Of a stretch of DNA of 44,628 nucleotides, positions 2,680 to 25,072 are shown in pieces (the stretch's first letter is position 1; each line of letters opens with the position of its first letter). The DNA comes from Bacteroidia bacterium. GTDB taxonomy: Bacteria > Bacteroidota > Bacteroidia > NS11-12g > UBA955. The notes beneath the pieces were generated by a model. It was not told where the DNA came from and searched no databases. It saw only the letters and a list, made by a program, of their open reading frames with translations. The position numbers and the translations under genes are program-made. Location of the stretch: NCBI GenBank assembly GCA_030158725.1, contig JAOASJ010000066.1:5995-50622 (forward strand). Direction: 5' to 3'.

Positions 2680-2682
2680 GAA

Positions 2683-5732: not shown

Positions 5733-6458
5733 TTACTTCTTTGAAAAGATATTGTATTTTAAAATACAGTAAATGGCTCTAAAACCATCTTTTGCGCCAA
5801 TTTTTTTCCCTTCAAAATAGGTTCGTCCATAATAGGAAATCCCTACCTCATAAATTCTAATTTTAGGAACTCTAGAAATTCTAGCTGTAACTTCAGGTTC
5901 AAAACCAAAGCGCTTTTCTTGAAAATTGAATGACTGAATTAAATCAGTTCTAAACAGTTTGTAACAAGTTTCCATGTCTGTCAAGTTAAGATTGGTTAAC
6001 ATATTGGATAGAAAAGTTAAAAATTTATTTCCTATCGAGTGCCAGAAAAATAAAATTCTATGTGGCTTTCCGCCCATAAAACGACTTCCGTATACAACAT
6101 CGGCGAATCCGTCAACAACAGGTTTCAACAAAATATTATATTCTGATGGGTCATATTCCAAATCTGCATCTTGAATAATTAAATATTCTCCTGTTGCTTT
6201 TTTAATTCCAGTATGCAAGGCGGCACCTTTTCCCTGGTTAATTTCGTGTTTATGGTATTGTATATCTACAGAAGAATTATTATCAATATATTCTTTAATT
6301 GACTCCTCTGTATTATCTGTAGAACAGTCGTTTACAATAATAATTTCTTTTTCAATATTGTCTAGTAAATGGACATTTTTGACCTTATCTAGAATCAAAT
6401 GAATTGTTGAACCTTCATTGTATGCCGGAATTATTATTGATAATTTTTTAATAATCAT
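5733..6458 (-). CDS. Glycosyltransferase family 2, polyprenyl-phosphate (DPM1-like) type
   Basis: A 241-residue GT-A glycosyltransferase. It starts with [14 protein letters not shown], then [30 protein letters not shown] and the metal-binding DxD-like stretch QDADLEYDP, with VYGSRF further on; this is the order seen in DPM/DPG-synthase-like enzymes that load a sugar onto polyprenyl phosphate. No C-terminal membrane helices are present, so it is the short soluble type. It overlaps the upstream oxidoreductase stop as TAATG (6456-6460), forming an operon with it and the ABC flippase. Donor and acceptor are unknown; a role in making a lipid-linked sugar for the surface glycan is inferred. Confidence 0.87.
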
Positions 6459-7483
6459 TACTTTTTAATCTTCAAATATGGGTTTCCATTGTAAATTCTC
6501 TCTATAATTTCAACCACTTTAAATCCATCTTTAGCGTTAGTGTCTATTTCCATATCATTAATGAGAACATCCAATACATTCTGGTAAACAAAATGATGGT
6601 TAGCTGCAGAACCTTTGTATGTTCCGTAGTCATTGGCTGGACTTGATTTCTCTAATACAGGCATTTCGTAGTTTTTGATGTGACAATATTCAATTTCATT
6701 CATATACTGTCCACCTATTTTAACAGAACCATTTTCGCCAATAATACTTATACTGCTTTCCATATTGGTATCCCAAACAGAAGTAGAATAATTAATACTG
6801 CCCATTCCGCCATTTAAAAAATCAAATTGGATAATACCTGAATCTTCAAAATCACTTAAATTTTTATGGTTAAAATCATTAAACCTTGATTGAATATTGG
6901 TAATATCACCAAACAACCAGAACATCATATCTATGAAATGAGAAAATTGCGTAAACAAGGTGCCGCCATCTTGGGCTAAATCTCCTCTCCAATTTTTACC
7001 CGTATAATAGCGTTCGTCCCTGTTCCAATAGCAATTAATTTGTACAGAATAAACATCGCCTAAAATACCTTGATCTAGAATTGATTTTATCCATTTTGAA
7101 GGTGGAGAATATCTATTTTGCATGACACAAAATACTTTCTTCTTATTTCTGTCTGCTTGATCTATAATATCTTGGGCGTCTTGAGAATTCAAGGCCATTG
7201 GTTTTTCTATGATAACATGTTTACCGGCAGACAAAGCTTTTATAGCAATTGAGGCATGTGAGCCATTTGGAGTAGCTATAGACAAGACGTCAAATTCTGG
7301 ACTACTTAATAAAAGTTGTTCTAAATTGTCAAAAAGAGGAACATTATATGCCGCAAGGTTGTTTTCCTTGTCAATATCACAAATTGAAACCAATTTGGAA
7401 TCTGCATGCCTAGAAATCATTTCAGCATGACGTTTTCCAATATGTCCTAAACCAATAACGGCAAATTTAATAGGTACTTTCAT
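6458..7483 (-). CDS. Gfo/Idh/MocA-family NAD(P)-dependent sugar oxidoreductase, WlbA/WbpB-like
   Basis: With the start at 7481-7483 ([19 protein letters not shown]) the protein has 341 residues and begins, as the family does, directly at the Rossmann strand with GLGHIG. An upstream extension to 7561 is possible but would run deep into the ABC gene and add 26 residues without family similarity. The EKP motif (IIEKPMALN), present in the catalytic cleft of this family, and the [21 protein letters not shown] segment are visible; the latter resembles WlbA/WbpB enzymes that oxidise UDP-GlcNAcA at C3. That exact substrate is a guess from similarity and context. It overlaps the ABC gene by 17 bases and the GT2 gene by TAATG. 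Confidence 0.85.
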
Positions 7484-9209
7484 TAACTTGCTTTTCGAGG
7501 TCTTCTTGATTGATGTGATAAGTGTGATCACATAAATCAATAATTCTCTTTTTATGTGCAATGATAACTAAAGTTACATTTTGTTTCTTAAGATTTTGTA
7601 AACTTTCTATCACGATATCTTCTGTTTCTGAATCAAGAGAGCTAGTTGCTTCATCAAAAAGTAAAACTGAAGATTCTTTATACAAGGCTCTAGCAATTGC
7701 TATTCTTTGCTTTTGGCCTTCACTTATACGTGAGCCCTGCTCTCCCAATAACGTATCTAATCCATTGGGTAGATGCTCTAGAAATCTTTGTAATCCTGAA
7801 TGCAGTATGGCCCTTTCCATTTTAGCTGCATCATAAGTAGAATTTAAAGATATGTTCTCATGTAAAGTTTTATTAAAAATAAAAGGATTTTGATGAACGA
7901 ATCCAATTTGATTTTGCCAAGATTGAATGTTTTTTGTGTTCAGCGCAACTCCATCTATGCTGATTTCACCCTTTTGAGGAAGTATTAAACCAGAAATCAT
8001 TTTCATTAAGGTGCTTTTCCCACTGCCACTAATTCCACTAATTCCAAAAATCTCCCCTTTCTTAATTACAAAACTGACATCATCTATCAATTTTTGTTTT
8101 TGGTCGTATTCGTATGATACATTTTTAATCTGCATTTCTGAGTTAAAATGCATAGGAACTGTCGTTTTGATTTTATTCTGTAGGGTATTATGGTATAAAT
8201 AATCAATAGTATGTTGATGCAGCTTAAGCTTCATTAATCCAATTAAAAGTCTATTGATTGCCGGCACCAACCTAAATACAGAAAGTACAAAAATTGCTGC
8301 CAAAGCCCTCAATCCGGCAGGATTGTCAGAAAAAAAGTATCCATAGATAACTAAAATTATTACCCCAGCTAATACAACGATTTCATTAGCTCTAGAAGGT
8401 ATACCTTGGTAAAAGATTGATTTGAAATCAGAGTCTATTAGAAATTTCTGCTTCTTTAAAAAATCCTTGATAAAAAAACCAGATGAATGATTCACTTTGA
8501 TATCAACCAAACCATTTACACCAATATTCAAACTCTCTATTGTTTCTTCCCTTTTTCCTTTGGTTTCCTCACCTAACTGATAAATTTTTTGCTTAATGCT
8601 GCTGCTTATAAAATAAAAAGCAGGTGCAGTTACCAAAACAATTAAGAAGAAAATAGATGGGTTAAACCAAATAATGAAAATTAGAATAAATAAAATAACT
8701 AAGCTCTCTCCAATAATATTGACAAAAGGCAAAAGAATACCAGTTGCAAAATACATCGAATTAAAATGGATTTTATTTAAAAAATCAGATGTGCCTTTGG
8801 CTACAATCTTTTCAAAGGACTGGTTTATTACATGATAAAACGTGTTTTCTGTAAAATTTTGAACCAGTTTGGTACTCAATTTATGAATGCTTTTTTGAAT
8901 TAAAACCGCAAAAATGTTTTTAATTAGAAAAAAGAAAGCAACTAAAGCAATTAGAGTTAATAAAAAATCTGATTCCTTTTCAATTCCAATAAATTGATGG
9001 ATAGCCCTTAATTTTCTACTTTTAGCTAGAAAGTCACCATCTATAGCCAACATCAAAACAGGAACAACTGCAGCCAATGCTATAACATCAGCAACGGAAA
9101 CGATAGCAGTCATGATGACCAATCGCCTTCCCTTTCTTAAGCTAGGTTTGTCTAAAAGTAAACCTATACTTTTTATGGTTTCTATAAATGCATTTCTTTC
9201 TGAGGACAA
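7467..9209 (-). CDS. ABC transporter with fused membrane and ATPase domains, PglK-like flippase
   Basis: A 580-residue half-transporter. About six membrane helices occupy residues 30-320, followed by an ATPase domain with Walker A GISGSGKST (392-400), signature ISEGQKQR (495-502), Walker B LLFDE (516-520) and switch His in IIAHKK (about 552). The N-terminal layout resembles PglK, which flips lipid-linked oligosaccharides, more than lipid A flippase MsbA; this is a judgement from overall pattern. The start is uncertain: the frame opens with TTG at 9207-9209 and no ATG occurs before residue 33. It leads the operon with the oxidoreductase and GT2 genes and is divergent from the gene at 9276. Confidence 0.83.
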   Translation of the reverse strand: MSSERNAFIETIKSIGLLLDKPSLRKGRRLVIMTAIVSVADVIALAAVVPVLMLAIDGDFLAKSRKLRAIHQFIGIEKESDFLLTLIALVAFFFLIKNIFAVLIQKSIHKLSTKLVQNFTENTFYHVINQSFEKIVAKGTSDFLNKIHFNSMYFATGILLPFVNIIGESLVILFILIFIIWFNPSIFFLIVLVTAPAFYFISSSIKQKIYQLGEETKGKREETIESLNIGVNGLVDIKVNHSSGFFIKDFLKKQKFLIDSDFKSIFYQGIPSRANEIVVLAGVIILVIYGYFFSDNPAGLRALAAIFVLSVFRLVPAINRLLIGLMKLKLHQHTIDYLYHNTLQNKIKTTVPMHFNSEMQIKNVSYEYDQKQKLIDDVSFVIKKGEIFGISGISGSGKSTLMKMISGLILPQKGEISIDGVALNTKNIQSWQNQIGFVHQNPFIFNKTLHENISLNSTYDAAKMERAILHSGLQRFLEHLPNGLDTLLGEQGSRISEGQKQRIAIARALYKESSVLLFDEATSSLDSETEDIVIESLQNLKKQNVTLVIIAHKKRIIDLCDHTYHINQEDLEKQVNESTY

Positions 9210-9275
9210 ATTGATTTCAGAATTAATTTTGAATTGAGTTACTTTGCAAAGGTAGAATAATTATTCATTTTCATT

Positions 9276-9851
9276 GTGTTTGAAATAACCCCAAAAGAGC
9301 AATTGCTTAAAAATGTTAGAAAAGGTTTGGTTCAACCTCTATCTAATAAATACCCTTTGTTAAATTTTGACAAGCAATTGGTTAAGACAAATTTAATAAG
9401 AACTGATGAAAGCTTTGTTGCTTCATGGGTGGGAAAAGGTTTTTTCTTTGCTGTTTACAATGGAATCTTTGATTTAATGAATCAATTAAACAATTTACAA
9501 GAGGTATATAATCTTGGAACACTAGCTATAGATGACAAAACATTATGCAGTTTGTTTAAAGAAAATGAAATACAGTTTCTACCACTTGAAGGTATTCAAA
9601 AGACTTTATGCAGTGGATTTTCAAAATTAGAGACCACTAGTGATACCTTATATTTTGGTTCAGAACTCCATCCGATTAAGTACTTTAGCAAATGTGAAAA
9701 TCTTATTTTGTTTGGTAAATCAAGTCAAATCGAATTACCTGACGATAATAAATATTTCACTGAAATTATGCTGAAAAATGATTTGAAAGTTGAATTGCCA
9801 ATTGAATATTTTCAACGTTTTAATTCAGTATTCCTCTTCATTGAAGAATAA
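9276..9851 (+). CDS. Uncharacterised protein, possibly a divergent LUD (LutC-like) protein
   Basis: A 191-residue protein read from a GTG (9276-9278); no nearby ATG is in frame. The opening (EITPKEQLLKNVRKGLVQPL) and the closing hydrophobic strand (VFLFIEE), together with the length, recall LUD-domain proteins of Bacteroidota, which begin with a similar helix and end in VYVFLVDE-like strands. The middle is poorly conserved, so the assignment is tentative and no function is claimed. No signal peptide or membrane span. It is the only plus-strand gene inside the glycan locus, facing away from the ABC flippase and ending 5 bases before the stop of the convergent deacetylase gene. A weak -7-like box TTACTTTG lies at 9239-9246. 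Confidence 0.6.
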   Translation: MFEITPKEQLLKNVRKGLVQPLSNKYPLLNFDKQLVKTNLIRTDESFVASWVGKGFFFAVYNGIFDLMNQLNNLQEVYNLGTLAIDDKTLCSLFKENEIQFLPLEGIQKTLCSGFSKLETTSDTLYFGSELHPIKYFSKCENLILFGKSSQIELPDDNKYFTEIMLKNDLKVELPIEYFQRFNSVFLFIEE

Positions 9852-9856
9852 ATCAA

Positions 9857-10792
9857 CTATTCTCTAATTTGACCAAACTTAAATTGATTGCAATCATAGC
9901 GGGGTAGTTCTTGCTTATGATTCAGTAAATCTGATTGAACGATATCTCTATGTTCCACATTAAATGAAAACAAACAATCATTTTCATTTAAAACATTCAC
10001 TGTATCTTGATTAAAAGAGTGAAATCCGCCATATGGATAACAAAATGTTTTATAAGGTAAACCTTTACAAGTTTGTTCTAAAAAACTAAAAGAATTTATA
10101 ATTTCTTTGGTTTGATCAACCCTATTTAATTTAGATAATACAGGATGACTAGCTGTATGACTACCTATGGTCATTCCATTTTCTTGCATTTCTAAAATTT
10201 GTTCTTCGGTAATATAAAACTTACTTCTTTGTCTATTTTGCTCAGGGATGAATTTCTCCATCAACTGATCAATTATAGTTTCTCTAAATTCATAACTAAT
10301 AAAGTAATTAAGTATACGCTTTACTAAGTTGGTATAAGAATCGTTTTTTTGTGTATTGTAGGTTAGTGTTTTAAATTCTATTTTTGAGGCATCAGTGCAC
10401 ATTTCATCCGTTACCAGATTTATCAATTCATTATAAATTAATTGACTTTCAACCATTCCAAGTAAAATATGTATTCTGTGTACATCAAGAATTTTATCAG
10501 ACGAGTACATTAATGTTGGCACATAAAAGATGCCCCATAAATTCCTTCTTTTTAATTCTTTATAAACAAAATCATAATGACAAGAAAGCGCATCATCAAA
10601 CGTTAACACAACTCCCTTTACAGCTTCTCCAGTTCGCAAAGAATTAATAAATTCATCTTGATTTATTATACCGTAAGTATTCTCAAAATAATCCAATTGA
10701 AGTTTAAAATCATCAAAGTGCAAATGTTTTAAAAACGGTAAATTAGCGTCACTTGGTCGCACATAATGGTACATGATAGCCTTCATACTCAT
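9857..10792 (-). CDS. Polysaccharide deacetylase, NodB-homology (CE4) family
   Basis: A 311-residue protein with the CE4 motifs: LTFDDA with the catalytic/metal Asp pair at about 66-67, the zinc-binding SHTASHP (His212, His216) and the YPYGG block near residue 250. The family removes N- or O-acetyl groups from sugars. The insert between the first and second motif (residues about 95-200) is long and helical. No signal peptide is visible, so it is probably cytoplasmic and acts on a precursor or nucleotide sugar; this is inference. Its ATG overlaps the stop of the formyltransferase gene (ATGA at 10789-10792), which makes the two genes a coupled pair. Confidence 0.88.
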   Translation of the reverse strand: MSMKAIMYHYVRPSDANLPFLKHLHFDDFKLQLDYFENTYGIINQDEFINSLRTGEAVKGVVLTFDDALSCHYDFVYKELKRRNLWGIFYVPTLMYSSDKILDVHRIHILLGMVESQLIYNELINLVTDEMCTDASKIEFKTLTYNTQKNDSYTNLVKRILNYFISYEFRETIIDQLMEKFIPEQNRQRSKFYITEEQILEMQENGMTIGSHTASHPVLSKLNRVDQTKEIINSFSFLEQTCKGLPYKTFCYPYGGFHSFNQDTVNVLNENDCLFSFNVEHRDIVQSDLLNHKQELPRYDCNQFKFGQIRE

Positions 10793-11634
10793 AATTCAAT
10801 TCCTGGATTATTGATTATACTTACTTGGCTGGTCAATTGATTTGAACTCTTTAAAAAATTAGAAATTAAATCATTCTTAAAGTTTTCATACATAGTGGCT
10901 AAAGATTGCTCATTAAAATCTGTTTTTTTATAATACTTCACTGATTCCTTTGGAAATGGAATTTGAGGCATTTTTTGCAAGTTGTCAAATTGATTTATTA
11001 ATTTTATACAAACTTCACTCATATCCACTATGAGGCGATTGCCAATCTGGTGAATGTTATCATTTGGATAAATTCTTGGTCGAATTTGATGGATTATTTC
11101 TCCAGTATCTATGCCCTTGTCGATATACATATAAGTAACCCCAACATACTCCAATTCATTATTTACAAAAGGCCAAAAATTAGTTCCACTTCCCCTGTAA
11201 TAAGGCGATAATCCAAGGTGGATATTTATAAATCGCCCATTGAAAAAACTTAATAAAGGTTCTCTAATAATTGAACATCCATAAGATATAATTAAGTCTG
11301 GATTTAGTTCCATCAATTCTTTTACTATAGGTTCAGAATTAATCTCATTTTTTTTGATATAACTTGGATTTGATAGGTCGACAACTTTATCACAAAATGA
11401 TTTAAAAAAATCAATTTCAGTTTGAGTTCTCATTGCGATATGATCCATTCTAGAAGAATTATCATCTGAGGACTCAACAACCTTTTTTAAAGAGTCGCCT
11501 TCTGATTCACAATAAGATTTCAATACTTGTATATTGTCGTCTAGTGCTATATTTTTTCTAAAAAATATATGCCTTAGCTCATTTCCAGTAATAACTACAA
11601 TTTTCTTTTTTTCCATTTTTCTTAAACCCATCAA
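10789..11634 (-). CDS. Formyltransferase-fold enzyme, probable sugar N-formyltransferase
   Basis: A 281-residue protein with a Formyl_trans_N domain. The catalytic Asn-His-Asp triad is visible as INIHLG (Asn137, His139) and GIDTGEI (Asp176), and YYRGSGTNFWPF stands where methionyl-tRNA formyltransferase has its YRG block. It lacks the full C-terminal tRNA-binding domain of Fmt and sits with glycan genes, so N-formylation of an amino sugar (as in WbkC/VioF-type enzymes) is more likely than tRNA formylation. Starts at 11634, 11631 or 11616 are all ATG. A TAAATTTG box 16 bases upstream favours the first ones. It overlaps the deacetylase gene by 4 bases. Confidence 0.8.
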   Translation of the reverse strand: MMGLRKMEKKKIVVITGNELRHIFFRKNIALDDNIQVLKSYCESEGDSLKKVVESSDDNSSRMDHIAMRTQTEIDFFKSFCDKVVDLSNPSYIKKNEINSEPIVKELMELNPDLIISYGCSIIREPLLSFFNGRFINIHLGLSPYYRGSGTNFWPFVNNELEYVGVTYMYIDKGIDTGEIIHQIRPRIYPNDNIHQIGNRLIVDMSEVCIKLINQFDNLQKMPQIPFPKESVKYYKKTDFNEQSLATMYENFKNDLISNFLKSSNQLTSQVSIINNPGIEL

Positions 11635-11819: not shown

Positions 11820-12986
11820 ATGCCATTATACCGTCAAGTAGGGAAGATTCCTCATAAAAGACACACAGTTTTTCGCCGTCCAGATGGACAATTATACCAT
11901 GAAGAACTTTTTGGAACGGAAGGTTTTGGAGGAATTTCTTCTTTAGTTTACCATCTTTATCCTCCAACCCTTGTAAAAGAATTTGGAGAACCATATAGCG
12001 TTAGGCCAGAAATTGCAGTAGAAGAGAATTTAAGGGCACGCAGTTTTACTGGATTCGATTTAAAACCTGAAGATGATTATGTAAAAAGTCGTACAGTACT
12101 TTTTGTAAATGATGATTTACACATTGGATTAGCGGCACCTAAATATGGAACCAAAGGATATTTTTTCAAAAATGCTGATGCTGATGAAATGCTATTCGTT
12201 CATAAAGGTGAAGGTTTGTTAAAAACCATGTATGGTAATATTCCTTTCAAATATGGCGATTATATTATTATTCCTAGAGGAACAGTATATATGATTGAAT
12301 TTGAATCTGAAGACAATAAAATACTGTTCGTTGAATCTTTTAGTCCGATTGAAACCCCGGCTAGATATAGAAATCAATACGGTCAATTCATGGAAAACGC
12401 CCCTTTTTGTGAACGCGATTTGAAATTACCTGAAAACCTTGAAACCCATGATGAGCAAGGAGAATTTAAAATATTAATTAAAAAAAGAGGCATTATTCAT
12501 CCTTATGTTTATTTAAATCATCCTTTTGATGTTGTTGGTTATGATGGATGTTCATACCCTTATGCAATGTCAATTTTTGATTTTGAACCAATAACGGGTA
12601 GAATTCATATGCCACCTCCAATTCACCAACATTTCCAAGCCAGTCAATTTGTGGTTTGTTCTTTTGTTCCACGTTTATATGATTACCACCCAGATGCAAT
12701 ACCTGCGCCATACCATCACAGTAATGTAGACAGCGATGAATTATTGTATTATGTTGATGGAGATTTTATGAGCAGAAACAATATACAAAAAGGTCAAATT
12801 ACTCTACATCCAGGAGGTTTACCACACGGTCCACATCCAGGAGCAATTGAAAGAAGTATTGGTAAAAAAGAAACCCATGAACTAGCAGTAATGATTGATC
12901 CTTTTAGACCAGTAAAAATTACCAAAGCCGCTTTGGGTATTGAATTACCTGATTATTATCTATCTTGGTTAGAAGAAAAAAAATAA
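11820..12986 (+). CDS. hmgA: Homogentisate 1,2-dioxygenase
   Basis: A 388-residue cupin-type dioxygenase that opens the ring of homogentisate to maleylacetoacetate in phenylalanine/tyrosine breakdown. RPEIAVEENLRARSFTG (62-78) and the C-terminal metal region are recognisable: PAPYHHSNVDSDELLYYVDG (about 296-314, candidate His and Glu iron ligands) and HPGGLPHGPHPG (330-341, His336). It is shorter than the roughly 440-residue human and Pseudomonas enzymes and belongs to the compact bacterial branch, for which the exact substrate has been less studied. hpd, the enzyme that makes homogentisate, follows after 13 bases, which strongly supports the assignment. Confidence 0.88.
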   Translation: MPLYRQVGKIPHKRHTVFRRPDGQLYHEELFGTEGFGGISSLVYHLYPPTLVKEFGEPYSVRPEIAVEENLRARSFTGFDLKPEDDYVKSRTVLFVNDDLHIGLAAPKYGTKGYFFKNADADEMLFVHKGEGLLKTMYGNIPFKYGDYIIIPRGTVYMIEFESEDNKILFVESFSPIETPARYRNQYGQFMENAPFCERDLKLPENLETHDEQGEFKILIKKRGIIHPYVYLNHPFDVVGYDGCSYPYAMSIFDFEPITGRIHMPPPIHQHFQASQFVVCSFVPRLYDYHPDAIPAPYHHSNVDSDELLYYVDGDFMSRNNIQKGQITLHPGGLPHGPHPGAIERSIGKKETHELAVMIDPFRPVKITKAALGIELPDYYLSWLEEKK

Positions 12987-12999
12987 AAATAATATTGAT

Positions 13000-14160
13000 A
13001 TGAACACAACAGATTTAACACAAGTTAAGAATTATAACTATTCTGAAACTGAAAAAATATTTGATAAAGCACAAGATTTCTTACCTATAAATGGAACCGA
13101 TTATGTAGAATTTTATGTTGGAAATGCAAAACAAGCTGCGCATTTTTATAAAACAGCATTGGGTTTTCAAGATTTAGCCTATTCCGGGTTAGAAACAGGT
13201 GTTAGAGACAAGACTTCTTATGTTTTACAACAAGGTAAAATTAAACTTGTTTTAACCAGTCCATTTGACAACGATAGTGACATCAGTGAACATTTAAAAA
13301 AACACGGTGACGGGGTTAAAGTAATTGCATTATGGGTAAATGATGCTTACGATGCTTACGAGCAAACCGTTTCCCGTGGAGCAAAATCTTATTTAAAACC
13401 TGAAACAATTAAAGACGAGCATGGTGAAATAAGAAGAGCGGGTATTCACACTTATGGGGATACCATACATATGTTCATAGAAAGGAAAAATTACAATGGT
13501 GTTTTTCTTCCAGGTTTTGAAAAACTTAAAACAGAATATAATCCAATACCTACAGGTTTAAAATATATTGACCATATGGTTGGTAATGTGGAATTAGGCG
13601 AAATGGATATTTGGGCTAATTTTTATGCCAATACTCTTGGTTTTGCAAATTTGGTGACTTTTGATGATAAAGACATTTCAACTGAATACACTGCTTTGAT
13701 GAGTAAGGTTATGACAAATGGAAATGGATATATTAAATTTCCAATAAATGAACCAGCGATCGGCAAAAAGAAATCACAAGTTCAAGAATATTTAGATTTC
13801 TATCATGGACCTGGTTGTCAGCATATAGCTGTTGCTACAGATGATATAGTTTTTACAATTTCTGAAATGAAAAAACGTGGGGTCGAATTTTTGTACGTAC
13901 CAGGCACATACTATGATACAGTTAAAGAACGTGTAGGTATAATCGAAGAAGACTTAGAAGAACTTAAAAAATGGGGAATCATGGTTGACCGTGATGAAGA
14001 AGGATATTTGCTTCAGATATTTACTAAACCTGTTGAAGATAGACCAACCTTGTTTTTTGAAATTATACAACGAAAAGGAGCAAAATCATTTGGCAAAGGA
14101 AATTTCCAGGCCCTTTTCGAGAGTATAGAAGCAGAACAGGCGCGAAGAGGCACCTTGTAA
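13000..14160 (+). CDS. hpd: 4-hydroxyphenylpyruvate dioxygenase
   Basis: A 386-residue Fe(II) enzyme converting 4-hydroxyphenylpyruvate to homogentisate. Two vicinal-oxygen-chelate halves are visible: YVEFYVGNAKQAAHFYKTA (35-53) and YIDHMVGNV (189-197). The 2-His-1-Glu iron triad is complete: His192, His275 in GCQHIAVATDDI, and Glu354 in LFFEIIQRKG. The family C-terminal helix, with GKGNFQALFESIEAEQARRG, closes the protein. It is co-transcribed with hmgA upstream, so the cell can take tyrosine-derived hydroxyphenylpyruvate to maleylacetoacetate; the later steps are not in this window. Confidence 0.96.
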   Translation: MNTTDLTQVKNYNYSETEKIFDKAQDFLPINGTDYVEFYVGNAKQAAHFYKTALGFQDLAYSGLETGVRDKTSYVLQQGKIKLVLTSPFDNDSDISEHLKKHGDGVKVIALWVNDAYDAYEQTVSRGAKSYLKPETIKDEHGEIRRAGIHTYGDTIHMFIERKNYNGVFLPGFEKLKTEYNPIPTGLKYIDHMVGNVELGEMDIWANFYANTLGFANLVTFDDKDISTEYTALMSKVMTNGNGYIKFPINEPAIGKKKSQVQEYLDFYHGPGCQHIAVATDDIVFTISEMKKRGVEFLYVPGTYYDTVKERVGIIEEDLEELKKWGIMVDRDEEGYLLQIFTKPVEDRPTLFFEIIQRKGAKSFGKGNFQALFESIEAEQARRGTL

Positions 14161-14230
14161 TTTACTTCATTGATACCGTTACCCAAATTTGAATTGGGAT
14201 GAACAAATTATTCAAACTATATTTGAAGCC

Positions 14231-14238
14231 TAAGTTTG
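14231..14238 (+). promoter_or_regulatory. -7 promoter box TAAGTTTG for tryptophan 2,3-dioxygenase
   Basis: An exact TAnnTTTG match in the 88-base gap after hpd, with its last base 10 bases before the ATG at 14249. It suggests the dioxygenase gene has its own promoter instead of depending on hmgA-hpd transcription. Confidence 0.6.
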
Positions 14239-14248
14239 CGCAATTAAA

Positions 14249-15172
14249 ATGACAGAAAATCAAGAACAACTATTAAAGCGTTTAGAGGAAAAATATCAAG
14301 CAATTGGACAAAATCCTGATACCCATTTGGAGGGTCTAGTTTGGGCGAAACCTATAACCTATTGGGATTATATTCAACCTGAAGCATTATTAAGTTTACA
14401 AATTCAACGCACAACTTTACCTGATGAAATGGTATTTATTATGTACCATCAAATCAACGAATTGTTGTTTAAAATGATTTTATGGGAAATAGATCAGGTT
14501 TGTAGCAAAGACGAAGTTAGCGCTAAGTTTTTTTCGGATAAATTAACACGCATAAGTAGATATTTTGATATGCTTAGTTCTTCTTTTACCATTATGGGTG
14601 ATGGTATGGAAGTTGAGCAATACATGAAATTTAGAAATACTTTAACCCCTGCTTCTGGATTTCAAAGTGCTCAATACAGATTAATAGAATTTGCTTCAAC
14701 TGAAATTATTAATTTAATTGATTTTAGATTTAGAGCAACAATTGACCGCAACACACCTATTGAACATGCTTATGACCACTTGTATTGGCAAGCTGCAGGT
14801 AAAGACCATAAAACTGGCAAGAAAAATACTTTAATTACTTTGTTTGAAGAAAAGTATAAAGATGATTTTTTGCGTAAAATGGAAACTTACAACACCAATA
14901 ATTTATGGACAAAGTTTAAAAGCCTACCTTCAGATATCAAATCTGATGAATCATTAGTAAAAGCCATGAGACATTATGATTATACAGTAAATGTTACATG
15001 GGTTATGGCTCATTATAGTGCCGCTGAAAAGTATCTAGAAAGTGGCCCTAAAAAAGCAGAGGCTACTGGTGGTAGTGATTGGAAAAAATATATGCATCCA
15101 AAATACCAAAGAAGAATATTTTTCCCTGAACTTTGGTCAGCTGAAGAGCTAGAGAAGTGGGGTGAGTTCTAA
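14249..15172 (+). CDS. kynA: Tryptophan 2,3-dioxygenase family protein
   Basis: A 307-residue heme dioxygenase, the first step of tryptophan breakdown to N-formylkynurenine. The family motifs are in order: YHQINELLFKMILWE (66-80), FRNTLTPASGFQSAQYRLIE (128-147, the SGFQS block), the probable proximal heme ligand His255 in WVMAHYSA, and ATGGSDWKKYM (272-282) matching the GTGGSxG substrate loop. It is divergent from the well-studied enzymes in the first helix region, so substrate preference is inferred. It follows the tyrosine-catabolism genes but has its own promoter box. No kynurenine hydrolase or kynurenine formamidase is visible here. Its stop abuts the stop of the convergent lipoprotein gene (TAATTA at 15170-15175). 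Confidence 0.88.
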   Translation: MTENQEQLLKRLEEKYQAIGQNPDTHLEGLVWAKPITYWDYIQPEALLSLQIQRTTLPDEMVFIMYHQINELLFKMILWEIDQVCSKDEVSAKFFSDKLTRISRYFDMLSSSFTIMGDGMEVEQYMKFRNTLTPASGFQSAQYRLIEFASTEIINLIDFRFRATIDRNTPIEHAYDHLYWQAAGKDHKTGKKNTLITLFEEKYKDDFLRKMETYNTNNLWTKFKSLPSDIKSDESLVKAMRHYDYTVNVTWVMAHYSAAEKYLESGPKKAEATGGSDWKKYMHPKYQRRIFFPELWSAEELEKWGEF

Positions 15173-16978: not shown

Positions 16979-18225
16979 TAGATAGAACTATAGCTCCAGA
17001 GATAAAAAACATAAGTCATATTAATACTGGGTATCCCATTTCGGAAACCAATATTTTTAGAGTTGACTCTGAGGAAGAAGTATTTAAATTAGAAATTGTA
17101 TTCCCAAAAGGAGGATATAGCTTGCTGGATAACAAGTATTCAGGAATTTATGCAATGGATTTACTTTTTAGTGGAACCCAAGAAAAAAATGCTCAAAAAA
17201 TTGCAGATGAAATAGATATTCTAGGAGGTTATATTTTCAAAGGCTGCGACTATTATACCTCTTCAATTACAATTTTTGGTATATCAGAAAACATAAAATC
17301 TCTAATTAAAATTGCTAAATACTGTCTTGAAAATTGTGTTTATCCTTTGGATGAGATAAACATACTTAAAAATAAAAAGAAGAGTGAGTTAAATATTAAT
17401 TTGAATAAGACAAATTATCTTGCAAACAGACAAATTAACCAGATGGTTTTTGGTAAAAACCATCCTTATTCAGTCCCATTAACTGAACAAATTATAGATG
17501 CCTTAAACTCTAAGGATTTTTTAGATTATATTAACACAAGACTAGTTGACCCCTATTTTATATTTACAGGTTCTAAGTCTATGAACATTGAAGAAATATT
17601 AGAAGAATATGGATTCAGTAAAAGACGTTTTGATATTGAACTAAGCTCTGAAGAGCAGGCTGTTGAAGAAGTTGCAAATGAGTTAATTATCAAATCGGGA
17701 AGCACCCAAAACTCTATAAGAATGGGGAAAAAGTTACCATCTAAAAAAGATCCCGATTTTTTCAAAATAAGTTTGGTGAACCTAATTCTGGGTGGATACT
17801 TTGGCTCACGTTTAATGAAAAACATAAGAGAAGAAAAAGGATTAACTTATGGTATACATTCAAGTATAACGCCCTTTAAAACATATAGTATCTTTAAGAT
17901 CAGCAGTGAGTGTAACAACAAACTAACTGAACAAGTAAAAACTGAAATTATCTCTGAAATGAATATACTTAGAACAGAGTTAGTTGAAATAGAAGAACTT
18001 ACGGTTGCAAAAAACTATCTTTTAGGTGCAATTAGCAGGAATTTTGATGGTGCTTTTAATATTAGTGATAGATTTAAAACGTTTTTAGAAATTGACAATG
18101 ACTATGATTATTACACCAAATATTTTAAAGCAATTACAGACATAAGCGCTGAAGACATAAGAGAGTGTGCAAACAATTATTTTGATCCAAATTCGTTAAA
18201 GTATTGCGTAGCAGGTGAGATGTAA
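16975..18225 (+). CDS. M16-family peptidase homologue lacking the zinc site, non-catalytic partner
   Basis: A 416-residue protein with the M16 fold. At the place of HxxEH it reads YAMDLLFSG (about 60-68), so no zinc can bind in the standard way. The C-terminal half keeps the R/Y substrate-binding block (GSRLMKNIREEKGLTYGIHS), which in paired M16 enzymes is supplied by the inactive subunit. It overlaps the catalytic gene by four bases, which supports a fixed 1:1 complex. It also overlaps the next gene by 11 bases. Confidence 0.9.
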   Translation: MIDRTIAPEIKNISHINTGYPISETNIFRVDSEEEVFKLEIVFPKGGYSLLDNKYSGIYAMDLLFSGTQEKNAQKIADEIDILGGYIFKGCDYYTSSITIFGISENIKSLIKIAKYCLENCVYPLDEINILKNKKKSELNINLNKTNYLANRQINQMVFGKNHPYSVPLTEQIIDALNSKDFLDYINTRLVDPYFIFTGSKSMNIEEILEEYGFSKRRFDIELSSEEQAVEEVANELIIKSGSTQNSIRMGKKLPSKKDPDFFKISLVNLILGGYFGSRLMKNIREEKGLTYGIHSSITPFKTYSIFKISSECNNKLTEQVKTEIISEMNILRTELVEIEELTVAKNYLLGAISRNFDGAFNISDRFKTFLEIDNDYDYYTKYFKAITDISAEDIRECANNYFDPNSLKYCVAGEM

Positions 18226-19975
18226 GACATTAATATTGATCATATTTTTTCTGGGTTTAATATTTAACACATATGGTGTTGAAAATAGACCCAAGATGAG
18301 ACGTGCGTGTCTTAACCGATTGGATTCAACACTTGATTTACAATGGAACAAACCCACAGATGTATGTGGAACCTTTACACATTTTGACCTATATGGAAGA
18401 GACAATAATCTTGCTGTATTTCAAAACCTAGGAAGGTATAACTCATTTATATTAAGCAATTTAAGTATCAAACTCAGCAATTTAAAAAGTTGGGAATTCT
18501 ACTTAGTTTATCATAAAGCTTGTAATGGAATTGATAGCATATTTAGTGATACTGTTTTAATAGACAACTCCCCTCCTATTAACTCTGAACTTGATTCTGT
18601 AAGCGTAGAATTAAACAGCCAAAAAACAATACTTGGTTGGAATAAAAATTCTAGTGTTGATGTGAAAGGATATATTATATACCATGTTACTGGAACCAAT
18701 TCAGTAATCGCAGACACCAATTCAACTTTTTACATTGATAATGGAAATAGAAACCCTAGTCTGGGATCTGAAAATTATAGTATTGCTGCTTTTGATAGTT
18801 GCAATAACACATCTCTTATTAGCAATCCACACAGAACTATTTATATTCAAGGTACATTAGACCAATGTTTGAAGACGATAAGATTAAGCTGGAGCCCTTA
18901 TGTAGGTTGGAATGTTTCTTCTTATAGCATTTTTGTGAGCATAAATGGCGGCTCATTTAAATTAGCAGGAAATGTAATACAGAATATTACAAGCTTTACC
19001 TATAATTTTCCTGTGTTTGGTGATAATTATTGCTTCTATATTAGAGCATATAAAGATCTAAACAATAGCATAAGTTCAAGTTCCAATAAAATTTGTATTA
19101 ATACTGGTAGTATAGTTGCAAATAAAAACTCATATGTTGCCAAGGCAAGTGTAAATAATGATAAAATAGATTTGGTATTAATAACGGAAACGGGCAAATC
19201 TCTACAAAAAATAAACATTTATAAAAAAGAAGGCAATTCAAACTTTGTTCTGTGGCAAAGCATTAATACAAATGGAGGAATAATAAATATTACAGACCCC
19301 AATGTATATGTTCATAGCAAAACCTATAGTTACTATTTTACTACAGAAGGGCCATGTAATTTAGTTTTTGATACATCCCAAACAGCAACAACAATTCTGT
19401 TATCAGTATTGATGATATCACCTGGAGATCAAATACTAAATTGGTCGCTTTACAACAAATTCATCAAACAAACCAAAAAACAAGAGCTCTTATTGTCAAA
19501 TAGTCCAAACTTTAACTATAGTTCCACGTGGAACATGTTAAGCAGTTTAAACAATTCGACCATAAACACCAATGACAATACTAACTTTAGTTTAACACAA
19601 GATAAGATATGTTATTGTATTAGGGCAATAGAAAATGATCCAAACATAACATATACAAGAAGCGATACTAGCTATAGCAATATAGAGTGCTTAAATGCAG
19701 ATCCAATTGTATTCTTCCCTAATGCACTTCAGATAAATGGATACAATACCTCTTTCTACCCTAAAGGTGTATTTATAGACTATGACAAAAGCTCTTATCA
19801 AATATATAACCGATGGGGCCAATTAATATTTGAAACCAACGACATACGAACACAGTGGTTTGGTACATTTAATGATAAATTAGTAGATAGTGATGTATAC
19901 GCCTATAGAGCAATTATAATTGGACTAAACGGGAGTACACTTTATTATGATGGAACAATAACAGTATTGAAGTAA
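18215..19975 (+). CDS. Secreted protein with fibronectin III-like modules and a T9SS type B (CHU_C) sorting domain
   Basis: A 586-residue protein. The GTG at 18215 gives a signal peptide (TLILIIFFLGLIFNTYG) and overlaps the M16 gene by 11 bases. Several FN3-like modules follow, recognisable by repeated LxWN/LSWSP strands with -GYIIYH or -SYSIFV partners. The last ~90 residues (about 496-586) are the gliding-motility-associated C-terminal domain: FFPNALQINGYN, YQIYNRWGQLIFETND and the closing YYDGTITVLK. Such proteins are exported by the type IX system and attached at or released from the cell surface. Function unknown. One GTTCCACGTGGAAC palindrome (19521-19534) lies within the reading frame as Ser-Thr-Trp-Asn. 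Its stop overlaps the ybeY ATG. Confidence 0.85.
   Translation: MRCKTLILIIFFLGLIFNTYGVENRPKMRRACLNRLDSTLDLQWNKPTDVCGTFTHFDLYGRDNNLAVFQNLGRYNSFILSNLSIKLSNLKSWEFYLVYHKACNGIDSIFSDTVLIDNSPPINSELDSVSVELNSQKTILGWNKNSSVDVKGYIIYHVTGTNSVIADTNSTFYIDNGNRNPSLGSENYSIAAFDSCNNTSLISNPHRTIYIQGTLDQCLKTIRLSWSPYVGWNVSSYSIFVSINGGSFKLAGNVIQNITSFTYNFPVFGDNYCFYIRAYKDLNNSISSSSNKICINTGSIVANKNSYVAKASVNNDKIDLVLITETGKSLQKINIYKKEGNSNFVLWQSINTNGGIINITDPNVYVHSKTYSYYFTTEGPCNLVFDTSQTATTILLSVLMISPGDQILNWSLYNKFIKQTKKQELLLSNSPNFNYSSTWNMLSSLNNSTINTNDNTNFSLTQDKICYCIRAIENDPNITYTRSDTSYSNIECLNADPIVFFPNALQINGYNTSFYPKGVFIDYDKSSYQIYNRWGQLIFETNDIRTQWFGTFNDKLVDSDVYAYRAIIIGLNGSTLYYDGTITVLK
19520..19535. promoter_or_regulatory. parS-like ParB-binding palindrome, site 1
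   Basis: The 14-base perfect palindrome GTTCCACGTGGAAC (19521-19534), flanked by A on both sides. It matches the core of the chromosomal parS consensus TGTTtCACGTGaAACA, and Pseudomonas parS sites use the CCACGTGG version. It lies inside the CHU_C protein gene. Confidence 0.75.
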
Positions 19976-20406
19976 TGATAAAATTCAATGGTAAAACAAA
20001 GGCAGTTAAGGAATACGCATCTTGCCTCAAACAAACAATAAAACAAATAGCAATTGATCATAAATTTAAAATAGGGTCAATTGATTATATTGTTGTTACA
20101 GATGAAAGGATACTTGAGATTAACAATAGCGCTTTACAACATGACTATTACACAGATATAATAACTTTTGATTATACTGAAAACAAGCAATTAGAGGGAG
20201 AGATATACATTAGTATTGATAGAATATTGGATAACTCTAAAAAATATAACGAAAAGTTCCACGTGGAACTATCTAGAGTAGTGTTTCATGGCATACTACA
20301 TATGGTAGGCTACAAAGACAAAACCAAAAAAGACATCTCAAAAATGAGAGAGATGGAACAAAAATACATAGAACAATTTTTAAAAGCGTTCCACGTGGAA
20401 CAATAA
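19975..20406 (+). CDS. ybeY: Endoribonuclease YbeY, 16S rRNA maturation
   Basis: A 143-residue metal-dependent endoribonuclease needed for 16S rRNA 3'-end maturation and ribosome quality control. The catalytic block is [11 protein letters not shown] (His105, His109); the third His of the E. coli motif HGxLHLxGYDH is replaced, as I recall for Bacteroidota YbeY in general. [16 protein letters not shown] (52-67) matches the conserved family segment. The start overlaps the previous stop as TAATG. The protein reads FHVE twice, at residues 95-98 and 139-142, because two parS-like palindromes fall in the same frame; the second forms the very C-terminus, ending FHVEQ. mnmG follows after one base. Confidence 0.93.
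20255..20270. promoter_or_regulatory. parS-like ParB-binding palindrome, site 2
   Basis: A 16-base perfect palindrome AGTTCCACGTGGAACT inside ybeY, with the same 14-base core as sites 1 and 3. It is 735 bases from site 1 and 132 bases from site 3. Confidence 0.78.
20388..20401. promoter_or_regulatory. parS-like ParB-binding palindrome, site 3
   Basis: A perfect GTTCCACGTGGAAC covering the last sense codons of ybeY and ending 6 bases before the mnmG ATG. Besides serving ParB it could affect translation initiation of mnmG, since a 14-base palindrome can fold in RNA. Confidence 0.77.
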
Positions 20407-20407
20407 T

Positions 20408-22261
20408 ATGAGAAAAGAATACGATGTCATTGTTATAGGAGCGGGTCACGCAGGCTGTGAAGCAGCACATGCGGCAGCAACTATGGGTTCAAGAGTAATA
20501 CTAATTACAATGAACATGGAAACAATAGCCAAAATGAGTTGCAATCCTGCAATGGGTGGTGTTGCTAAAGGTCAAATAATTAGAGAGATAGACGCATTAG
20601 GTGGTATGTCTGGTATAATCACAGATAAGACCATGTTGCAATTTCGCATGCTAAACAGATCAAAAGGCGCTGCGATGTTTAGCCCTAGAGCACAATCAGA
20701 TAGAATGCGCTTTTCGGAAGAATGGAGATTAGAACTTGAATCAAATCCTAACATAGATTTTATGCAAGACAATGTAACTTCATTATTTGAAACATCAGGT
20801 AGAATATCTTCTGTAAAAACTAGTATGGGTTATGAAGTATTTGGCAAAGCTGTTATAGTAACCAGTGGTACTTTTCTAAATGGCTTAATTCACATTGGCA
20901 CAAAAAACTTCGGTGGAGGTAGAATGGCTGAAACGAACAGTGTTGGAATAACTGCAGACCTTGTTAAATTCGGTTTTGAAGCTGGTAGAATGAAAACAGG
21001 AACTCCACCTAGAATAGACGGAAGGTCTTTAGACTATACAGTAATGGAGAGGCAAGATGGGGATGAGAACCCAGGTAAGTTTTCATTTTCAAATAAAACT
21101 CAGTCATTGAAGAATCAACTGCCATGCTATATTACTTATACGAATGAAAATGTTCATGATATATTAAGAGAAGGATTTGACCGTTCTCCTATGTTTAATG
21201 GTAGCATTTCGGGATTAGGTCCGAGATATTGCCCTTCTATAGAAGATAAGATTAATAGATTTGCAGAAAGAGATAGACATCAAATTTTTGTTGAACCTGA
21301 GGGATGGAAAACAGTTGAAATGTATATTAATGGCTTCTCAACCTCATTGCCAGAAGACATACAAGAAAAGGCTTTAAGACTAATTCCTGGGTTTAAAGAT
21401 GCAAAAATATTTAGGCCTGGATATGCTATTGAATATGACTTCTTCCCTCCTACCCAATTAAAAGCTAATCTTGAAACCAAAATTATTAATAATTTATTTT
21501 TTGCTGGTCAAATAAATGGTACAACGGGTTATGAGGAGGCAGCATGCCAAGGCTTGATGGCTGGTATAAACGCTCATCTAAAGATAAACGATAAACAAGA
21601 ATTTATCCTAAAAAGATCTGAAGCATATATCGGAGTACTAATAGATGATCTAATTAATAAGGGTACAGAAGAACCCTATAGGATGTTTACTTCTCGAGCT
21701 GAGTTTAGGATATTATTAAGACAGGACAACGCTGATAATAGACTAACTCAATTAGGATACAATATTGGTTTAGCAAGTCAAGAAAGAATTGAAGATCTTA
21801 GTATAAAAAATGATAAAGTAAAATCTTTAATACATTATATAAAAAATCATTCTTGCGAACCCAATGAGGTTAATCCACTTTTAGAATCTAAACAAACTAG
21901 TCAAATTGATCAAAAAGTAAAATTAGATAAGATTGTATTAAGACCTCAAATAGAAATAAATGATTTTAATACTATCTATGATAGAATTTCTGATGAAGAT
22001 GACGAGATAAAAGAAGAGGCAGAAATATTAATAAAATATGAAAGCTATATTGAGAAAGAAAAACAAATGGTTGAGAAAGTATTAAAATTAGAACATTTAA
22101 AATTGAGTTCAGAATTTGATTATAGTACTTTAAAAACATTGAGTTTAGAAAGTAGAGAAAAATTAAATAAGATTAAACCAGAAAATATTGGGCAAGCTTC
22201 AAGAATAAGTGGTGTTTCTCCATCAGATATTTCAGTTTTATTAGTACATTTAGGAAGATGA
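20408..22261 (+). CDS. mnmG: tRNA uridine-5-carboxymethylaminomethyl(34) synthesis enzyme MnmG
   Basis: A 617-residue FAD enzyme that with MnmE modifies the wobble uridine of several tRNAs. The dinucleotide-binding motif GAGHAGCEA (11-19), the [11 protein letters not shown] block (45-55, including the conserved Cys), [24 protein letters not shown] and [23 protein letters not shown] are all present, and length is normal. The C-terminal helical domain ends with [19 protein letters not shown]. The ybeY-mnmG order is common in Bacteroidota. The three parS-like palindromes just upstream fit the frequent closeness of gidA/mnmG to the replication origin in other phyla, although this alone does not place the origin. 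Confidence 0.97.
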
Positions 22262-23649
22262 AATATTTCAATATAATTTTAATTTTAATTCTATTCTATT
22301 CTTGCGCTAATGTTGGGACATTAGGAGGTGGTCCAATAGATGATAAACCACCTATTCTTTTAAAAAGTAATCTAACCAAAGATAATTTTAATAGCAGAAC
22401 AATAACACTAGAATTTGACGAATATATAAGCTTAAATAATGCTGAGAAGAATATTTTAATTTTACCTAAAACATGTAATTTGAAAATATCTTCAATAAAT
22501 AAAAAAGTAACTATACAACTGGATAGTCAGCTAAAAAATGATGTAACCTATAATCTAATAATAAATGGAGGAATAATAGATAACAACGCATCAAATAAAT
22601 TTATATACAATTATATTTTTTCAAAAAACGTATTAGCTGATTCGTCCATAATACAGATAAATCTATCCAACTTAGAAAATAATAAAAATACTAAAATTTG
22701 TATTAACTCAAATACTGGAATAGATAGCTTTAAAAATTTCAACATAGACTATATGATGCCTGTTGAAACTGAAAAAATAATATATAGAGGAATTAATAAT
22801 CCTTCAATAAATCTTTGGTTGTATACTGATAAAAATAATGATAATAAACCAGATCTATATGAACCAATTAATTTCATTAAAAATATAAATAAAGATAGTA
22901 CATATAATATATCATTGATAAACTGGAAAAAGCCATTTAAAGTAAACAAGGTTATAAATGATGAAACTTTTAGTTATATAAAACTTTACTATGACAAGGA
23001 GGAAAATATTAGTGAGATTATCTCAAAGATAAACATTGAAAGTAGTAAGTTAATTTTAATTACATCGGAATATGCAATCGCTAAAAAAGATAATAATTCA
23101 TTAGAATTTACCATTGATACATCGGTAAAATTTAATTATAAAGATGATTTAAAAAATTACATATTAAAATCTATTCAAATTCTAAAAATTAGAAATAATT
23201 ATATTGTTCAATATAAATTACCGTATGACATTAAGAATTATGAAAAAAATCATCATTTAAACGTCATTAGACGAACTTTAAATATAAAACCTGATACATT
23301 TATCATATCAGATAAAAATGTAGGCATACAAGATACTTTTAATTTAAAGAATATAAATATCGATGAAGAACAAAAATTATCACATTTAACGGTTTCAATT
23401 AATAGCAGCACTTCAAATTATTTTGATATTAAAATTACAAAAAATGGAAAATATTTTAAGACAATATTTAATACAAATTTAATTGATGAATATTTTGAAC
23501 CAAATGTGTATAAAATTGAAATTTACAAGCATAATTATGAAAATGAATTTAATCCTTTAAATATGATTAAAAACACGCAACCTATATACGAAAAAACCTT
23601 GTATTTAAAGGCATCTTGGGAAGAAAAACTTGATGTAAAAGTTGATTAA
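22258..23649 (+). CDS. Lipoprotein with N-terminal Ig-like (Big_5/SbsA-type) domain
   Basis: A 463-residue lipoprotein with a signal ending in FYSC (Cys16). The segment [19 protein letters not shown] followed by [18 protein letters not shown] is the hallmark of a widespread Bacteroidota family annotated as Ig-like domain-containing protein. The C-terminal two thirds is beta-rich, very rich in Asn, Lys and Ile, and carries no motif I know. The start overlaps the mnmG stop as ATGA, making it the last of six coupled genes. Function unknown; outer-membrane attachment is inferred. Base composition is even more AT-rich than its neighbours. Confidence 0.82.
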
Positions 23650-23757
23650 TTTTCAACATAATTAACAACATAATCATGTATAAATTTGAGGTATTAGAAT
23701 ATAGCTTATGTGGAACATTTCTGATGTTTGTAAGAGTGAAAATAAGTGTATAATTAT

Positions 23758-23780
23758 AGGATAAATAGTAGGTTTATCCT
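23758..23780. repeat. Perfect 8-base stem inverted repeat
   Basis: AGGATAAA (23758-23765) and TTTATCCT (23773-23780) with a 7-base spacer. It could be a transcription-factor site or an RNA hairpin; there is no T-tract. Confidence 0.5.
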
Positions 23781-23806
23781 CAAAAGTAATAAATCTGTAA
23801 ACTGGT

Positions 23807-23832
23807 ATTCACATAAATGTTAATATGTGAAT
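23807..23832. repeat. Perfect 9-base stem inverted repeat
   Basis: ATTCACATA (23807-23815) and TATGTGAAT (23824-23832) with an 8-base spacer, 27 bases after the preceding hairpin. TGTGA/TCACA half-sites recall Crp/Fnr-type operators, but the orientation and spacing differ from the E. coli Crp consensus, so no regulator is named. Confidence 0.45.
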
Positions 23833-24046
23833 TAAGTAGTCAAGACACTAGTAAAATATAGAAAATTAGATGAAATTTAGCGTTGGTAACTAAGTTAAAA
23901 ATTAAAATATTCAATATAAAAAACACTAAAATAATGAGTTATCACGATATCAACAGTACTATACTAATACAATATATTATTTAAATAAATCTTTTATTAT
24001 TCTTATCCGTTGAAAACCCAACTAAACTGAAATTAAAACTTTAAAC

Positions 24047-24054
24047 TACTTTTG
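24047..24054 (+). promoter_or_regulatory. -7 promoter box TACTTTTG for pheS
   Basis: An exact TAnnTTTG match with its last base 4 bases before the pheS ATG (24059). This predicts a leaderless or one-base-leader pheS transcript. Confidence 0.65.
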
Positions 24055-24058
24055 TACC

Positions 24059-25072
24059 ATGCTTGAAAAAATTGAAGAACTGAAAAATAAAGCAAAGAAT
24101 TTCACAATTGAAAATTTAGAATCTTTAGAAAATTATAGATTAGCATTTTTATCAAAAAAAGGTTTTCTAAATAATTTATTTGAAGATTTTAAAATTATAA
24201 GTGGTGAAGAAAAAAGAGAAATTGGTAAACAATTAAATATACTAAGACAAGAAGTTGAATCGATTTTTAATGAAAATCGCGAAAAATTTTCCGGCGCAGC
24301 CGGTGTTAATAAACTTAACATAGATGAATCTTTGCCTGTATTTGCTGAAAAAATTGGTTCCACACATCCAATATCAATTGTAAAAAACAATATTTTAGAA
24401 ATATTTGAAAGCATAGGTTTTACAGTAGAAAATGGTCCAGAGATAGAAGATGATTGGCACAATTTTACGGCTTTAAATTTCGCGGAAAATCATCCAGCGC
24501 GCGATATGCAGGATACTTTTTTTGTTAATAAAGAACCTATTGGAAATTTTGCTTTAAGAACCCATACTAGTAGTGTGCAAGTTAGATTAATGGAAAATGA
24601 GAAACCTCCAATTCGAGCATTAATGCCAGGAAGAGTATACAGGAACGAAGCAGTTTCATCGAGATCCAATTGCTTTTTTCATCAAATAGAAGGTCTATAC
24701 ATTGATGAGAAAGTAAGTTTTGCTGATTTAAAACAGACACTATACTATTTTGTTTCACAGTTTTTTGGTGAAAGAGAGATTAGGTTTAGACCTTCTTATT
24801 TTCCTTTTACAGAACCAAGTGCAGAAATGGATATCTTTTTAGGGACTGCAACAGAACAAGACAAAAGGCTTACAAAAGGTACCGGTTGGCTTGAAATTCT
24901 TGGATGTGGTATGGTAGATCCTAATGTTCTACAAAATTGTGGTATTGATCCAGAAAAGTATTCAGGTTTTGCTTTTGGTATGGGTATAGACAGAATTACT
25001 ATGTTAAAATATGGTATTAAAGATATACGTCAAATGTTTGAGAATGATGTTCGATTTTTAGAACAATTTTAA
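24059..25072 (+). CDS. pheS: Phenylalanyl-tRNA synthetase alpha subunit
   Basis: A 337-residue class II synthetase subunit with an N-terminal coiled-coil arm (residues 1-90) and the catalytic core: FHQIEGLYIDEKVSF (motif 2 region), PFTEPSAEMDIF, GWLEILGCGMVDPNVL and the motif 3 FGMGIDRITMLKYGI. All class II motifs are intact and length is normal. It charges tRNA-Phe together with PheT, which is not in this window. A small secreted protein gene follows after one base. Confidence 0.97.
   Translation: MLEKIEELKNKAKNFTIENLESLENYRLAFLSKKGFLNNLFEDFKIISGEEKREIGKQLNILRQEVESIFNENREKFSGAAGVNKLNIDESLPVFAEKIGSTHPISIVKNNILEIFESIGFTVENGPEIEDDWHNFTALNFAENHPARDMQDTFFVNKEPIGNFALRTHTSSVQVRLMENEKPPIRALMPGRVYRNEAVSSRSNCFFHQIEGLYIDEKVSFADLKQTLYYFVSQFFGEREIRFRPSYFPFTEPSAEMDIFLGTATEQDKRLTKGTGWLEILGCGMVDPNVLQNCGIDPEKYSGFAFGMGIDRITMLKYGIKDIRQMFENDVRFLEQF

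Follow-up and report, generated by a model that had tools for sequence, protein, structure and literature searches.

Three copies of a 14-base palindrome lie within 0.9 kb of coding DNA beside mnmG in this Bacteroidia genome, and the question is what holds them there: a protein that binds them, the proteins they encode, or chance. We propose that the three palindromes are chromosomal parS sites, which together would form the centromere of the genome, that the origin of replication is probably located in the gap at 23650-24058, and that selection acts on the DNA and not on the encoded proteins. On the comparative sequence evidence, we regard this combined reading as very probable. The window, meaning the whole stretch of 44,628 nucleotides that was analysed, represents most of contig C66 (50,622 bp). 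The sites and their surrounding genes are as follows.

18215-19975, plus strand: gene encoding a T9SS (CHU_C) sorting-domain protein, host of site 1 (PF13585, 2.9e-07, over the cut-off; TIGR04131, below the cut-off)
19521-19534: predicted parS site 1, GTTCCACGTGGAAC, in the T9SS sorting-domain gene, read as STWN
19975-20406, plus strand: ybeY, rRNA maturation RNase, host of sites 2 and 3 (TIGR00043, 5.2e-24; PF02130)
20256-20269: predicted parS site 2, in ybeY, read as FHVEL; a 16-base perfect palindrome with its flanks
20388-20401: predicted parS site 3, at the 3' end of ybeY, read as FHVEQ; ends 6 bases before the mnmG start codon
20408-22261, plus strand: mnmG (gidA) (TIGR00136, 7.6e-251)
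22258-23649, plus strand: gene encoding an Ig-like (Big_5) protein, between mnmG and the gap before pheS (PF13205, 2.1e-08)

Elsewhere in the window, genes for tyrosine and tryptophan breakdown were found at 11820-15172, with 4-hydroxyphenylpyruvate dioxygenase over the cut-off, a weak match to homogentisate dioxygenase and a match to tryptophan 2,3-dioxygenase below the cut-off. The region 2-11634 carries mainly minus-strand genes, resembling a polysaccharide cluster by eye (ABC exporter, glycosyltransferase-like genes), including an UpxY-family antiterminator over the cut-off. At 40699-44628, a 1310-aa open frame, cut by the end of the window, resembles by eye a large repeat-bearing surface protein.

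The preliminary description had placed copies of GTTCCACGTGGAAC at 19521, 20256 and 20388, all of them within genes and with no further copy in the window, and had called site 2 a perfect 16-mer. All three copies are present at these coordinates, site 1 in the T9SS sorting-domain gene and sites 2 and 3 in ybeY, and the flanks of site 2 do give A-GTTCCACGTGGAAC-T (those of site 1 are A...A, and those of site 3 C...A). The claim of uniqueness can be extended, as these are the only exact copies in the entire assembly (2.67 Mb in 131 contigs, rated 90% complete), clustered within 0.9 kb and not spread over the genome. Places with two mismatches number eight in the assembly, compared with four for a reversed-pattern control. 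A chance origin had been judged unlikely, and this was borne out: the window contains six matches at three or fewer mismatches (the three exact sites and three with three mismatches), whereas 100 shuffled sequences gave a mean of 0.57 and a largest count of 4. Consistent with parS, the palindromes match GTTYCACGTGRAAC, the copies are few and clustered (three exact, in 0.9 kb), and the same genome encodes one ParB of the chromosomal type.

The exact form was present in 19 of the 70 genomes of the same family (own included), and its reversed control in none of the 70. In a draw across the phylum, in which all genomes other than our own were at least 95% complete, GTTYCACGTGRAAC was found in 76 of 80 genomes (own included) and the reversed control in 4 of 80. 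Of the 75 other positive genomes, 29 yielded a locus; mnmG was present in 26 of these and ybeY in one more, such that 27 of the 29 inspected loci hold one or both genes. Among mnmG loci, 76 were fetched and 75 analysed, after L092, which was without the mnmG start, had been dropped. Between -1300 and +1950 of the mnmG start, 49 of the 75 loci contained exact GTTYCACGTGRAAC (93 sites in total) and 60 contained a site within one mismatch, and only five exact sites were found elsewhere in the same 1.28 Mb: three in the gap before pheS (L040, L063 and L079) and the others in L027 and L086. Six decoy palindromes gave no match near mnmG and one elsewhere.

To describe conservation at base level, the window was aligned with L070, L024, L025 and L094, in which all three sites are exact. 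Over 4,060 columns, 46% of them invariant, the sites are the only invariant runs of 14 columns or more; because the five sequences were chosen for their exact sites, the information lies in the absence of any other such run. When L028, L038 and L098 were added, the invariant runs left were site 2 (shifted by one base) and site 3, the run at site 1 being lost because site 1 has changed in those three, to GTTCCCCGTGGAAC (as also in L084). Site 2 was seen at its place only in close relatives, and the most widely kept of the three is the site just before mnmG, at the place of site 3.

No site within one mismatch was found near mnmG in 15 of the 75 loci, 14 of which are labelled Saprospiraceae, Saprospira or Aureispira. 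Six genomes from among these 15 were searched, and all six have exact sites elsewhere. In five of them (Saprospiraceae or Aureispira) the sites form clusters, located beside homoserine kinase in L313, L314, L315 (just under the cut-off) and L317 (partial, weak), and nearest to mtnB in L316. A single exact site was found in the sixth, G187 (Prolixibacteraceae), within a DNA polymerase I-like gene approximately 10 kb beyond mnmG. The record of Saprospira grandis Lewin begins at dnaA; mnmG follows near 0.72 Mb, ParB at 0.78 Mb and the cluster at 2.04 Mb. The two inspected loci of the phylum draw with neither mnmG nor ybeY (L245 and L246) have thrB and thrC instead. The neighbourhood of homoserine kinase, with threonine synthase in L245 and L246, can be a second home of the parS cluster when it is not at mnmG.

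Variants of parS with one half changed (GTTCCCCGTGGAAC, GTTCCTCGTGGAAC and GTTTCACGGGAAAC) were observed in L026, L029, L035, L072, L083, L097 and L080, and in the genomes G070, G071, G074 and G077. These four genomes have no zero-mismatch site (their one-mismatch reversed controls gave 2, 4, 1 and 0 matches, respectively), and G075 has one exact site. GTTCCCCGTGGAAC occurs 13 times near mnmG, once in reverse orientation. The C at position 6 of the changed half-site is the Noc-type base, yet the aligned ParB proteins keep R173 and G201 by eye, so that these ParB specificity residues do not explain the GTTCCCCGTGGAAC sites.

Does replication begin near the sites? Proximity to oriC had been suggested from the parS cluster and from mnmG, and GC skew agrees. 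In all four relatives sampled, a sign change occurs beside the sites, within approximately 65 kb, as judged from samples of G003 (C1, 1.79 Mb of a 2.5 Mb genome in three contigs), G095 (C1, 2.41 of 2.5 Mb), G163 and G135 (single contigs) and not from a continuous reading of whole chromosomes. The sample just to the right of parS in G135 (882-902 kb) was -0.007, followed by positive values, and two samples near contig ends in G095 were faintly of the opposite sign (-0.003 and -0.018). The skew of the window's own contig is consistent with this position but noisy: 5-kb bins from 9 kb onwards gave -0.150, +0.044, -0.031, +0.166 and +0.290, so that the stretch from 14 to 24 kb has no settled sign and only to the right of the following gap is the skew clearly positive.

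23650-24058: candidate oriC, AT-rich gap before pheS (409 bp, GC 0.23)
23650-23658, plus strand: TTTTCAACA, DnaA-box-like word in a conserved block
23939-23955, plus strand: TTATCACGATATCAACA, conserved block that includes DnaA-box-like words; 15 of 36 gaps have a block of this type
24059-25072, plus strand: pheS, on the far side of the candidate origin (TIGR00468, 4.3e-93)

A gap of 281-475 bp, with a GC content of 0.13-0.36, precedes pheS in all 36 sequences that hold this gene (window included), and the skew pooled over the 36 flips at the gap. For plus-strand genes, pooled third-codon skew is -0.283 over the 1.5 kb leading up to the gap centre and +0.150 over the 1.5 kb beyond it, a comparison of orthologous genes to which gene-specific codon use may contribute. 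Farther to the left the pooled skew remains negative for plus-strand genes, and the balanced value is near zero beyond approximately 12 kb. The DnaA-box consensus is TTATCCACA. Words within one mismatch of it number 33 in the 14.3 kb of the 36 gaps (2.31 per kb), compared with 16 in the 53.8 kb of 156 other AT-rich gaps (0.30 per kb); 23 of the 36 gaps have at least one such word and 13 have none. The window's own gap has one. Single-genome clusters of DnaA boxes are weak and the enrichment appears in the pooled gaps only; across the window, strict boxes (TTWTNCACA) number 2 against 9.6 expected, fewer than by chance. AT-rich non-coding DNA at a change of skew sign is what an oriC should look like, and the gap at 23650-24058 is likely to be the origin. 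A half parS (GTGGAAC) is present inside it at 23709-23715; the same gap holds the full sites of L040, L063 and L079, and one-mismatch sites in L039 and L099.

The competing explanation that survives best accepts the sites as parS and places the origin elsewhere, for example at dnaA, with the cluster simply located on a chromosome arm. In other phyla the origin is often marked by dnaA, and the window's contig, at only 50.6 kb, has noisy skew. However, dnaA is 1.09, 0.85, 0.75 and 0.87 Mb from parS in G003, G095, G163 and G135, respectively, and in these four genomes the skew has the same sign on either side of dnaA (with the G135 contig taken as circular) and changes beside parS. Moreover, dnaA itself is near the mnmG sites in G158, G169 and G109, and in G181 if that record is circular. 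We consider an origin away from the cluster improbable. The distance from dnaA to parS is 7-9 kb for G158 and G169 (with G181 equally close, if circular), approximately 16 kb for G109 and approximately 0.43 Mb for G114. A DnaA search of our own assembly did not find dnaA.

If the palindromes are parS, the genome should encode a ParB, and the search for a homologue returned one gene, at C8:5764-6300, directly after a ParA gene. Profile search identified the ParB_N, HTH_ParB and ParB_C domains, and ParB was also found in 32 of the 35 genomes reached via mnmG loci (the misses being G075, G083 and G094). The ParB contig cannot be placed relative to the window in our assembly. In two relatives parAB is not beside the sites: ParB and parS are 1.26 Mb apart in G003 (with G091 taken to be the same record), and in G095 the distance is at least about 1.05 Mb. 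Proximity of parAB to parS is common but not defining. ScpA was not found in our genome in a search with one family against the 90%-complete assembly, for which 9 of 14 control genomes were positive, Bacteroides ihuae not among them; one report, in its available part, found none of the known condensins in two gut Bacteroidetes (PMC10197239).

Might the palindrome be bound by a regulator other than ParB, either a Noc-like protein or a repressor of mnmG? The protein matches solved Noc chains as well as ParB and Spo0J chains, and the Noc model hits it with an E value of 4.8e-68. However, the Noc score of 229 is below the Noc cut-off of 315, whereas the ParB model is over its own, and R173 and G201 (Caulobacter numbering, equivalence by eye) are ParB and not Noc residues. 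Noc binding sites (NBS) differ from parS at half-site positions 1 and 6, according to the portion of PMC7383237 available, and the window sites carry G1 and A6. A regulator of mnmG misfits both the site in the upstream gene and the thrB/thrC sites of other genomes. Binding by such a protein is in our judgement slightly less probable still than an origin elsewhere, and ParB remains the predicted ligand.

The reading frames of the sites argue for selection on DNA. A ybeY match was obtained in 62 of the 77 sequences searched, and frames were tallied by hand. Frame 2 is used for the site next to mnmG in 14 of the 62 (FHVE- or FHVK-type tails), frame 1 in 11 (CST in ten and FT in one, then a stop codon provided by the site) and frame 0 in three (VPRGT, VSRET-like); in 20 the site starts only after the ybeY stop codon, and the remaining 14 have no site in the scanned stretch or one farther upstream only. 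Because all three frames are used, or the site lies beyond the stop, it is the DNA that is conserved and not the protein. The usual reading of site 1 is STWN, FTWN or SPWN. That the sites arose by chance, or are kept for the protein sequence, would fit their location in coding DNA and the recurrence of W and N of STWN at site 1. This reading has next to no probability, given the three frames, the 20 sites past the ybeY stop, the alignment with no other invariant 14-column run, and the codons at site 1, where ACG (12.4% of Thr codons in these loci) and TCC (10.9% of Ser codons) are rare yet recur. An RNA hairpin in the ybeY-mnmG transcript, as a perfect palindrome near the mnmG start might suggest, can be dismissed with equal firmness, as half-changed forms near mnmG that break pairing in the sense RNA (GTTCCACGTGAAAC, 14) are about as frequent as those that keep a wobble (GTTTCACGTGGAAC, 15) and an Rfam search of the window gave no family at its gathering score.

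In the ParABS system, as described in the available part of PMC7333895, ParB nucleates at parS and covers nearby DNA, and ParA moves the complex. The mechanism here is probably the same, by analogy with ParABS. We infer that ParB, encoded with ParA on another contig, would load at each predicted site and spread along the surrounding DNA, mnmG and the origin included; ParA would then move the newly copied origin region apart. Replication would probably begin in the gap at 23650-24058, approximately 3.2 kb from site 3, and the end of YbeY would be a passenger, read from parS in whatever frame results.

Across the phylum, we lean towards a broader reading with moderate confidence: the Bacteroidota centromere may largely have stayed at ybeY-mnmG, with the origin before pheS in many lineages and dnaA and parAB far away in several. 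The DNA would have been kept in any frame, dictating the tail of YbeY and in some cases its stop codon, while in some lineages the cluster would have been relocated (to thrB/thrC or other loci) and in some the site itself altered, giving asymmetric half-variants such as GTTCCCCGTGGAAC. If it is conserved in this way, the parS cluster would be a simple sequence mark of the Bacteroidota origin, even in fragmentary metagenome assemblies, in which dnaA can mislead. The locus would also show cleanly how a DNA-binding code can override a protein code, and the altered sites would form a natural set in which to study the evolution of ParB specificity.

As an element, a parS cluster at a probable origin is of a known kind. 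What deserves attention here is that many relatives keep it in place whatever the reading frame, and that in several it is separate from dnaA and parAB. In searches combining parS or oriC with Bacteroidetes, Bacteroides, Flavobacterium or gidA/mnmG, this layout was undescribed in the titles and opening lines of abstracts among the matches listed, which is weak evidence of absence. Noc binding sites are alike in protein family (ParB/Noc) and similar in sequence, but carry A and C at half-site positions 1 and 6, where the window sites have G and A. In the available part of PMC4755523, the oriC region of Bacteroidetes is described as commonly far from dnaA, with a skew sign change and DnaA boxes at a distance from that gene, as here; we propose a specific gap, before pheS and next to parS. 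Another precedent is PMC10197239, in the covered text of which parS clusters mark ori in Bacteroides caecimuris and other gut bacteria, the parS consensus is printed as TGTTTCACGTGAAACA and Livny 2007 is cited as a survey of parS sites. That system resembles ours in having a Bacteroidetes parS cluster at an origin that is not always at dnaA; it rests on Hi-C, whereas the present case rests on comparative sequence, and the same portion of the paper gives no gene context for the sites. With chromosomal ParABS in general, the locus shares the palindrome core, the clustered copies, the encoded ParA and ParB and a position by the change of skew sign. It differs in that its sites lie in the coding DNA of ybeY and the gene upstream of it, and in the position of parAB, over 1 Mb from the sites in G003/G091 and G095, and of dnaA, which five relatives have at a distance of 0.43-1.1 Mb and others close by.
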